This document shows positions 1 to 51,324 of a DNA stretch of 64,000 nt, one piece after another. A program made the position numbers and the translations under genes. The notes beneath the pieces were generated by a model, which searched no databases, had not been told where the DNA came from, and was given only the letters and a program-made list of their open reading frames with translations. Positions within the stretch are counted from its first letter, which is position 1, and each line of letters opens with the position of its first letter. The stretch is taken from positions 124,001-188,000 of the forward strand of contig JADZAN010000002.1 in NCBI GenBank assembly GCA_020852815.1. Reading direction: 5' to 3'. This stretch comes from Gemmatimonadaceae bacterium (lineage in GTDB: Bacteria > Gemmatimonadota > Gemmatimonadetes > Gemmatimonadales > Gemmatimonadaceae).

Positions 1-389
1 AGGACGCGCTCCATTACCTGGGCCAGGTGGTGATTGACCGGGTACTTCACGAACGGGCGCACCATGGGGTCGTCGCTGCCGAAGGGGACCACCCCCTTCC
101 CGCCCCACAGCGATGCAGCGACGGGACCGCGTCGCCCCTGCGCGCCGAGCATGAGTTCGTGCGCGTACGTGTGCGGGTGACGGCGGTCGATGTATCCCTC
201 GCCGTAGCCACCAGGGTTGATCTCGCCGCGGCGCAGGGTGACGCCTTCCAGGTTGAGCGTCGCCAGCGCCTGCACGGCCCCGCCCGCCAGCTGCATGCTC
301 CCGAAGAGCATGGGCTGCGTGAGATACCCCTCGGTGATGCGCTGGCCGTGCGCCCCCGGCGCGGCAACAGTGCCGAGGCCAATGGCCAT
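1..389 (-). CDS. Secreted/outer-membrane-like protein, C-terminal part outside window
   Basis: The leftward reading frame is open from about position 551 to the window edge, so the C-terminus is cut off. It contains GEINPGGYGEGYIDRRHPHT, followed by YAHELMLGAQG. Tyr/His/Pro-rich motifs of this kind occur in uncharacterised bacterial envelope proteins often found near metal-handling genes; this is a family impression, not a firm assignment. The first in-frame ATG is at 389. However, the same frame upstream (about 518 to 455) encodes a good signal-peptide core (ALAALSLVGAPLAAQ), and no in-frame ATG, GTG or TTG precedes it. The true start is therefore unclear: a CTG start or an upstream frameshift are both possible. 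It follows the cyclophilin gene in the same direction and may be co-transcribed with it. Confidence 0.5.
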   Translation of the reverse strand, partial: MAIGLGTVAAPGAHGQRITEGYLTQPMLFGSMQLAGGAVQALATLNLEGVTLRRGEINPGGYGEGYIDRRHPHTYAHELMLGAQGRRGPVAASLWGGKGVVPFGSDDPMVRPFVKYPVNHHLAQVMERV

Positions 390-12489: not shown

Positions 12490-12508
12490 TCCCGGCGAAG
12501 GCTGGGGA
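12490..12508. repeat. CGAAGGCTGGGG hairpin-family repeat (degenerate copy)
   Basis: This is one copy of the CCCCAGC-GAAG-GCTGGGG element also seen at 28531-28570 and inside the FAD oxidase gene. It overlaps the first ATG of the next open frame, so that ATG (12508) is unlikely to be the true start of the DUF5916 gene. Confidence 0.65.
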
Positions 12509-28530: not shown

Positions 28531-28570
28531 CCCCAGCGAAGGCTGGGGCCTGCCCCAGCGAAGGCTGGGG
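28531..28570. repeat. Tandem CCCCAGC-GAAG-GCTGGGG hairpins
   Basis: Two identical 18-bp perfect hairpins (28531-28548 and 28553-28570; 7-bp stem, loop GAAG) repeat with a 22-bp period just after the AGAAGACG repeat. They may act as terminator or mRNA stabiliser of the PBP transcript. Related copies lie at 12490, 49371, 50202 and 50301. Confidence 0.85.
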
Positions 28571-49431: not shown

Positions 49432-51324
49432 CTATTCGGGGCTGGTGAGCATCTCCAGACGAGATGCGTCGTAGGCGCGTTCGCGCTCCACGCGCTCGAG
49501 GACGGCGCGCGCTGCCTCGGGGAGCGCGGGAAGGGTGGGGTCGTACTTGATCTGCGCGAAGAGATCGCACGTGAGGGGGTGAACCTTCACGCCGGGGTTG
49601 AGGATCCCCGCCGGGTCGAAGATCGCCTTGATGCGCTCGAAAAGCGCCAGCGCGCTGGGCGGCCATAGCTGCGCGAGTGCCGGCGTGCGCCAGCGGCCAT
49701 CGCCGTGTTCGCCGGCGATCGTCCCGCCCAGCGTGGCGGTGAGGGCGACGACGTTGTCGAAGAGGAGGCGGATGCGCTCGCGCCAATCGTCGTCGCGCAC
49801 GTCGACGAGCGCGTTCACGTGGACGTGCGCATCGCCGGCGTGCCCGAAGATCACGCCGCGCAGTCGCGATTCGGCGAGCGCGTTCCGCACGCCGCGCACG
49901 TAGTCGCCCAGTCGTTCCGGGGGGACGCAGCCATCCTCGACCACCTGCATCGACTTGAGGTTGGGGTCGAGGCGGGAGAGGATCGGCGACGCCGCATGGC
50001 GCAGCGCCCACAGCGCCTCCTCGGATTCGGCGTCCAGCCCCACCAGCACGCCGGAGGCGCCATTCGCCTCGCACGCCGCGGCAAGTGAGCGCGCGCGATC
50101 GGCGACGGCGACGCCAGCATCCGCGTCTGGGCCGACTGGCGTGTGGCGCCGATTTTTCGCGCCCGAGGTCGCCGAAAGAGCGGGGTGTTCCGACGTATGG
50201 GTCCCAGCTTTCGCTGGGACGGTGGGCGAATGCTCGCTCGGTGGGTGAGTGCTTTCGCGGCTTTGCGCCGGCGCGGGTGCACGGTGCACCGGCAAATGGG
50301 TCCCAGCTTTCGCTGGGAAGGTGGGTGAATGCTGGATCGGTGGGCGAGTGCTTTCGCGGCTTTGCGCCGGCGCCATTCCTTCCTCCAGTTCGATGAGGAG
50401 GACCGCCTCGGTGTCGTCGGGGACGGGGAGCGCCTGCGCCCTGCGGGCTATGTCGAGGAAGGTGCGGTCGAGGAGTTCGCACGCGGTGGCCCCGTGCTCG
50501 CGCGCGAGCGCCGCCCCAACGACCGATTGCTCCAATGACGGAAAGGCGGCCAGCACGGTGGCGGTGGCCGCGGGGACTGCCGTCAGGCGCAACTCGAGGG
50601 CCGTGAAGAGGGCAAGCGTCCCCTCGCTCCCTACCAGGAGGTCGAGCAATTCGCCGCTGGCGGCGAAGTCACGCACGCCGTATCCCGACGACTCCTTGCG
50701 CACCCGCGCCTCGGGGAGCGCGGCGGCCGCCGCACGCAGCTCGTCCTTCGCCGCGCTCCAACGATCAAGTGCCGGCACGCCAACCGGGAGCGGGGCACCA
50801 CGCCGGATCGTCGCCCGGCTGCCATCGGCAAAGACGCACTCCGCCGCCTCCACCCAGCGCCGCATGGCGCCAAAGGCGAGCGTGCGCGGACCGGCCGCAT
50901 TCGTCGACGCCATCCCCCCGATCGTCGCGAACGTTCCGCTCGATGGATCGACCGGGAAGCGCAGCGCGGCGCCGTTGGCGTCGTGCTCCACGTCGCGGCG
51001 CAACACGCCGCTCCCTACCCACACGGTGCGGCGTACGACGTCGACCGGCTGGCGCGCCAGCAGCCGCGAGCAGTCGACGATCACGCCGTCGCCCACGGCC
51101 CCTCCGCCCATGCTGCTCCCGCTGCCACGTGCAACGAGCGGGACCCGTTCGGCGGCCGCCCAGCGCAGCAGCGTGACCACGTCGTCGGCGTCGAGCGGGA
51201 TGGCCACGGCGCGGGGGACGAGCTGGAGCACTCCGGCGCTCTCGGCGTAGACGGCGCGCGCAACGTCGTCCGTGCGGAACGGGCCGCGAATCGGTGGGGG
51301 CGAATTCACGAAGCGGGACCACAT
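49432..51324 (-). CDS. FAD-linked oxidase (GlcD/D-lactate dehydrogenase family) with in-frame repeat insertion
   Basis: The 630-residue flavoprotein has a FAD_binding_4 domain (about 40-215): LVARGSGSSMGGGAVGDGVI, PVDPSSGTFATIGGMASTNA, SSGYGVRDF and LLVGSEGTLALFT. The C-terminal oxidase domain ends FDPAGILNPGVKVH and has GHAGDAHVHVNALVD and TIAGEHGDG. It would oxidise a 2-hydroxy acid such as lactate or glycolate. Residues about 316-398 are foreign to the family: two near-identical APAQSREST, then HSPTxPAKAGTH, units. They are encoded by 77-bp DNA repeats and placed between two conserved parts of the cap domain. The reading frame is kept throughout. Confidence 0.88.
   Translation of the reverse strand: MWSRFVNSPPPIRGPFRTDDVARAVYAESAGVLQLVPRAVAIPLDADDVVTLLRWAAAERVPLVARGSGSSMGGGAVGDGVIVDCSRLLARQPVDVVRRTVWVGSGVLRRDVEHDANGAALRFPVDPSSGTFATIGGMASTNAAGPRTLAFGAMRRWVEAAECVFADGSRATIRRGAPLPVGVPALDRWSAAKDELRAAAAALPEARVRKESSGYGVRDFAASGELLDLLVGSEGTLALFTALELRLTAVPAATATVLAAFPSLEQSVVGAALAREHGATACELLDRTFLDIARRAQALPVPDDTEAVLLIELEEGMAPAQSRESTRPPIQHSPTFPAKAGTHLPVHRAPAPAQSRESTHPPSEHSPTVPAKAGTHTSEHPALSATSGAKNRRHTPVGPDADAGVAVADRARSLAAACEANGASGVLVGLDAESEEALWALRHAASPILSRLDPNLKSMQVVEDGCVPPERLGDYVRGVRNALAESRLRGVIFGHAGDAHVHVNALVDVRDDDWRERIRLLFDNVVALTATLGGTIAGEHGDGRWRTPALAQLWPPSALALFERIKAIFDPAGILNPGVKVHPLTCDLFAQIKYDPTLPALPEAARAVLERVERERAYDASRLEMLTSPE
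50197..50372. repeat. Two 77-bp direct repeats with CCCAGC-TTTC-GCTGGG hairpins inside a CDS
   Basis: Copies at 50197-50273 and 50296-50372, spaced by 99 bp, differ by few bases. Each starts with an 18-bp hairpin (TCCCAGC-TTTC-GCTGGGA), related to the intergenic hairpins at 28531-28570. They form an in-frame insertion in the FAD oxidase gene. Confidence 0.9.

Follow-up and report, generated by a model that had tools for sequence, protein, structure and literature searches.

In-frame insertion of a REP-like palindrome array fragment in a loop of an FAD-linked oxidase gene from a Gemmatimonadaceae bacterium

The window, a 64,000-nt stretch of DNA (positions 124001–188000 of contig 2), belongs to a 5.38 Mb genome of 47 contigs, whose closest named relatives found are Gemmatimonadaceae/Gemmatimonadetes MAGs. 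It contains an open reading frame that runs without interruption across all of its 630 aa and carries both FAD_binding_4 (residues 37–170, E 2.3e-29) and FAD-oxidase_C (E 1.9e-54, best C-terminal stretch from residue 399), the Pfam domains of FAD-linked oxidases of the GlcD / D-lactate dehydrogenase type. Because its score against the GlcD equivalog model TIGR00387 (210 bits) lies far under the cut-off of 567.9, the oxidase is not named GlcD proper. The AlphaFold2 model of the protein (overall pTM 0.78, built on a shallow alignment of 6 sequences) best matches D-lactate dehydrogenase 9qit among solved folds (Z 34.6), along with mLDHD 8jd* structures at Z ~34 and remoter flavoproteins, such as eugenol oxidase, at Z 26 and below. 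Outside the insert described here, the model has the D-LDH fold (Table 1).

Table 1 Features of the oxidase gene and its insert, in window coordinates.
Feature	Position	Strand	Evidence
FAD-linked oxidase gene, GlcD / D-lactate dehydrogenase type, 630 aa, insert-bearing	49432..51324	-	Pfam, NCBIfam, fold matches
Helix aa 401-420, first ordered element after the insert	50065..50124	-	AlphaFold2 model
Inserted segment, ~aa 317-400, ends approximate (+/- 15 nt)	50124..50373		Empty sites in congeners
Upstream part, array unit 1 (GTGTGGCGCCGATTTTTCGCGCCCGAGG...; intergenic arrays have the homologous GTGTGACACCGATCTTTCYCGCCCGGGAG...)	50140..50183	+	blastn/nhmmer to L081 (C15:~216.6-217.3 kb)
Repeat copy 1, 91 nt	50184..50274	+	Direct-repeat search
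Palindromic core TCCCAGCTTTCGCTGGGA, copy 1	50202..50219	+	
Repeat copy 2, 91 nt, 89% identical to copy 1	50283..50373	+	Direct-repeat search, blastn
Palindromic core TCCCAGCTTTCGCTGGGA, copy 2	50301..50318	+	
Strand aa 307-314 (VLLIELEE region), final ordered element ahead of the insert	50383..50406	-	AlphaFold2 model

Alignment with 29 relatives uncovered ~80 extra residues between 'VLLIELEEG' and 'VADRARSL', a segment present in 1/30 proteins, this oxidase alone, which rules out an ancient family-specific loop. In two congeners (G001 and G002; 74–75% amino-acid identity to the oxidase), the site is occupied by short, variable loops (LVEDGAP and DGLEGDGREGTG). The DNA flanking the insert is collinear with both congeners by blastn, the gap between matches being 276 nt here vs. 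27 nt in G001 (net +249) and 272 nt here vs. 38 nt in G002 (net +234), and each net length is divisible by 3. The ends of the insert are approximate because the length of the native loop varies, and neither terminal inverted repeats nor a target-site duplication was recognised at them. An initial annotation, made from the DNA letters alone, had described ~80 foreign residues in an FAD-linked oxidase with the frame kept open, and had proposed a comparison with insert-free orthologues; the unbroken ORF, the 29/29 orthologues without the segment and the collinear empty sites of the two congeners bear this description out.

The two direct copies within the insert recur with a period of 99 nt (33 codons), and each contains the same palindromic core. 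They correspond to two REP-like copies in the initial annotation, which had their number right and slightly underestimated their size at 77 bp. Among the encoded peptides are AGTHLPVHR and ESTHPPSEHSPTVPAK, and the peptide repeats named in that annotation, APAQSREST[R/H] and PAKAGTH, are present. The palindrome has a stem of 8 bp in copy 1 (GTCCCAGC/GCTGGGAC) and of 7 bp in copy 2, a GAAA loop, and a tail that reads ...GGGA(C/T)CCAT; both insert copies, like most copies of the family, read CACC on the minus strand ahead of the 8-nt stem position. Positions 50140–50325 align over almost two units with an array on another contig (contig 15), and the core of the second unit (50277–50325) shares 49/49 bases with an intergenic unit of that array. 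The reading of the segment as a repeat element inserted in frame is supported.

A search with an 18-mer of the palindrome (≤2 mismatches) returned 147 + 123 = 270 matches in the genome; the reversed control gave 0 and 1. Two families can be distinguished: family A (AAATGGRTCCCAGC...GGTGGG), which forms head-to-tail arrays with variable spacing and includes the insert, and family B (CTCGTYCCCAGCNTTCGCTGGGRCAGG), which is mostly intergenic, single or paired. Nearly all palindrome copies lie outside genes according to a survey of ORFs and codon GC, and as short, high-copy, mainly intergenic palindromes, single or grouped, they are REP-like in the general sense. The family-A 23-mer ATGGRTCCCAGCNTTCGCTGGGA (≤1 mismatch) occurs in 110 copies in this genome and in none of 248 other genomes of the phylum; by these counts, family A appears private to the species, as sampled. 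The copy distribution and the perfect match to the intergenic unit together indicate that the insertion is young. No donor outside the phylum came to light: viral contigs, plasmids and phages were searched and all lacked a match.

Contigs C2, C8, C13, C18, C19, C20, C22, C37, C38, C39, C42, C43 and C46 also begin or end in family-A arrays, which probably broke the assembly there, so that the true copy number is probably higher than the count. On contig C30, ~12 family-A-like palindromes lie in tandem with an exact 36-bp period (L093:2685-3180; C30:58.68–59.18 kb), and a palindrome array with a 45-bp period occupies 62.3–63.05 kb. Elsewhere in the window, a head-to-tail family-B pair is found in apparently intergenic DNA just past a probable gene end (28531–28570), and a single family-B palindrome at 12490–12507.

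Other in-gene palindromes were sought among 273 copies in 515 kb, the survey requiring coding-like flanks of ≥150 nt on both sides; diverged copies were covered in part. Nine ORFs passed the codon-GC filter, and after Pfam searches the oxidase remained as the only clean in-gene case, along with two weaker ones. Systematic domestication in this genome is not supported, the oxidase being nearly unique among the surveyed palindromes, and its insertion has the look of an uncommon chance event rather than of a domestication programme. The first weaker case is a degenerate family-B-like palindrome in a hydrophilic, variable loop of an L-lactate permease (L163:3-1832; C19:~265–266.8 kb), a loop longer than that of the congeners. 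In the second (L125:2480-4366; C2:~286.4–288.3 kb), a family-B pair sits where an AHSA1-glyoxalase gene meets an alpha/beta hydrolase ORF within a single open frame of 629 aa. The corresponding hits in the congeners have one stop each (TAA in G001, TGA in G002), and a REP-made gene fusion or a stop loss is possible.

In the AlphaFold2 model of the oxidase, residues 318–400 are the sole long stretch with pLDDT <50 (~27) and are all coil, which suggests that the insert peptide is disordered, low pLDDT being only suggestive of disorder. The stretch lies between an ordered strand and an ordered helix, at a site where the native loop is variable in congeners. The initial annotation had placed the insert in a loop between conserved parts and called for a structure model; the model agrees with that placement, and the retained activity it considered possible is plausible for an insert so located.

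A REP-array fragment that inserted in frame into a permissive loop of the oxidase, with neutral effect, very probably explains these results. Part of an intergenic array of REP-like palindromes would have been copied or recombined into the gene, landing in the beta-alpha loop behind the conserved strand 'VLLIELE'; a net length divisible by 3 and a GC-rich repeat mostly free of stops kept the frame open. The insert itself is stop-free in 4/6 frames, and any one frame is open in 44% of comparable 250-bp segments of the arrays, giving a random insertion a chance of ~1/3 × 0.44 = ~0.15 of being both in frame and open. We infer that frame-breaking insertions would be lost, so that the survival of one open insertion is unsurprising. 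If translated, the gene would yield a normal, presumably still active enzyme with a Pro/Ser/His-rich disordered surface loop of ~80 residues, which is most likely neutral or slightly harmful.

Measured against its congeners, the oxidase is constrained (dN/dS ~0.21–0.27, at the same rate in both gene halves), and its distances to outgroups equal those of the congeners, with no acceleration; both measures mostly reflect the time before the young insertion and are no proof of present function. Between the two insert copies, dN is 0.129 and dS 0.095 (dN/dS ~1.3), and the differences fall on all codon positions; with no codon-position bias, there is thus no sign of purifying selection on the peptide. 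The initial annotation had spoken of domestication, a term that these substitution rates (dN 0.13 vs. dS 0.10), the disordered model and the youth implied by the 49-bp perfect intergenic match do not support, as none of them gives a sign that the peptide has been recruited. In its coding-strand RNA, the insert folds more stably than shuffled sequences (z -4.36), as expected since it contains palindromes, and this predicted fold could possibly affect expression.

It is unlikely that the insertion inactivated or crippled the enzyme and that the gene is a fresh pseudogene not yet decayed. In so young an insertion an intact ORF is weak functional evidence, and the inserted RNA is strongly structured, but the frame is exact with no stop along the ORF, the insert occupies a variable loop between ordered elements, and the low chance of an open frame mildly favours selection against frame-breaking insertions. 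That the insert peptide or RNA hairpins have gained a useful role in partner binding, localisation or translation regulation we regard as most improbable: the strong RNA fold and a 33-codon period that permits in-frame expansion are compatible with such a role, but the two copies show no sign of constraint, no structure is predicted, the insert is young and species-private, and it is nearly the sole intragenic case in the survey. We likewise give very little credence to the array acting in this lineage as an expandable 33-codon cassette that alters the enzyme loop, and hence its partners, abundance or regulation, which would mean that a private palindrome family had truly been recruited within Gemmatimonadota. 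An assembly artefact, in which an array was misjoined into the gene, is scarcely credible even for repeats that break assemblies at many contig ends, given that the insert stands between the two halves of a single gene, in collinear order with congener DNA, the copies differ by 11% and are thus distinguishable, and the frame is preserved.

In-frame insertions of this kind have several published counterparts. The initial annotation held such insertions to be rare outside Rickettsia, yet in-frame intragenic REPs and MITEs are on record well beyond that genus (PMC3733652, PMC2759123, PMC2229807, PMC5896051). REPs tagged with GTAG or CGTC lie within genes in Opitutus terrae, Thauera, Xanthomonas recB and R. 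conorii (RPE-4/6), and REP clusters in Thauera and R. conorii encode 43–82 aa (PMC3733652). In-frame fusions of RPE, ERIC/RU and Correia 107-bp elements have been reviewed, including an R. conorii guanylate kinase (Gmk) that is active despite its RPE (PMC2229807); further cases comprise enterobacterial in-frame repeats (PMC2759123) and Coxiella QMITEs fused in frame to genes (PMC5896051).

Like the tagged REPs (PMC3733652), the palindromes reported here are short and mostly intergenic, with few copies within conserved genes. Their hairpin, with its 4-nt GAAA loop and CCA tail, resembles CGTC-1 REPs and fits the loop of 4–5 nt and CCA tail of the CGTC super-family (PMC3733652), and like CGTC repeats they have no recognisable transposase of their own. 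The unpaired CGTC/TGTC/CCTC tag and the 8–9 bp stem with an AT-pair start described for that super-family (PMC3733652) were not found, the insert copies having CACC and a stem without an AT start, and for this reason the palindrome is not filed under it. Unlike tagged REPs, it also has a longer conserved unit (~70–95 bp) and forms head-to-tail arrays, and its phylum is absent from the list of CGTC phyla in PMC3733652.

The palindromic elements of Rickettsia (RPE) and Wolbachia are similar in being tolerated in frame in protein genes. The RPE differ in phylum and in number, with essentially one clean case here vs. 19 reading frames first reported there; no RPE protein-domain model appears among the NCBIfam hits to the oxidase up to E = 1, which rules out the insert as an RPE. 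ERIC/RU-1..3, Correia/NEMIS 107-bp elements and Coxiella QMITEs are likewise small non-autonomous repeats whose open frames fuse to genes, but most of them resemble MITEs, bearing terminal inverted repeats and, in several, target-site duplications; neither was recognised in the present insert. Neisseria dRS3 / NIME arrays (CGTC-1) share the repetition of a palindrome in mosaic intergenic arrays and differ in the arrangement of spacers and, judged by the CGTC-1 description, in the palindrome.

The oxidase thus leaves the knowledge of intragenic REPs unchanged, the phenomenon being already described in several other bacteria, but provides a clean, young and well-bracketed natural insertion, with two congener empty sites and a 49-bp identical intergenic unit. 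It shows that a conserved enzyme can take up GC-rich palindromic repeats in frame, here in a phylum unlisted for CGTC repeats (PMC3733652), and offers a handy test case for the tolerance of large disordered loops.

Candidates for mobilising the palindromes were also considered. Integron cassettes are rejected, as GTTAGGC/GCCTAAC is not enriched near the copies (19 in 35.9 kb vs. 79 in 178 kb elsewhere). An integron-type integrase is encoded at C18:187322-188263 (TIGR02249, 393 bits, over the cut-off), with no family-A copy near it. A RAYT, which would be a tyrosine transposase gene with this palindrome on its flanks, is rejected as mobiliser: the sole Y1_Tnp hit, at C9:243554, has unrelated inverted repeats on either side (GGGGTCAGAGTCA.../...TGACTCTGACCCC), and its 10-kb locus (L111) holds no family-A or -B copies. 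Within this locus (L111:4823-5778; C9:~243.3–244.3 kb), the Y1 transposase lies between its own inverted repeats GGGGTCAGAGTCANCGA/TCGNTGACTCTGACCCC and likely represents a 'TIRtron' with no relation to either palindrome family.
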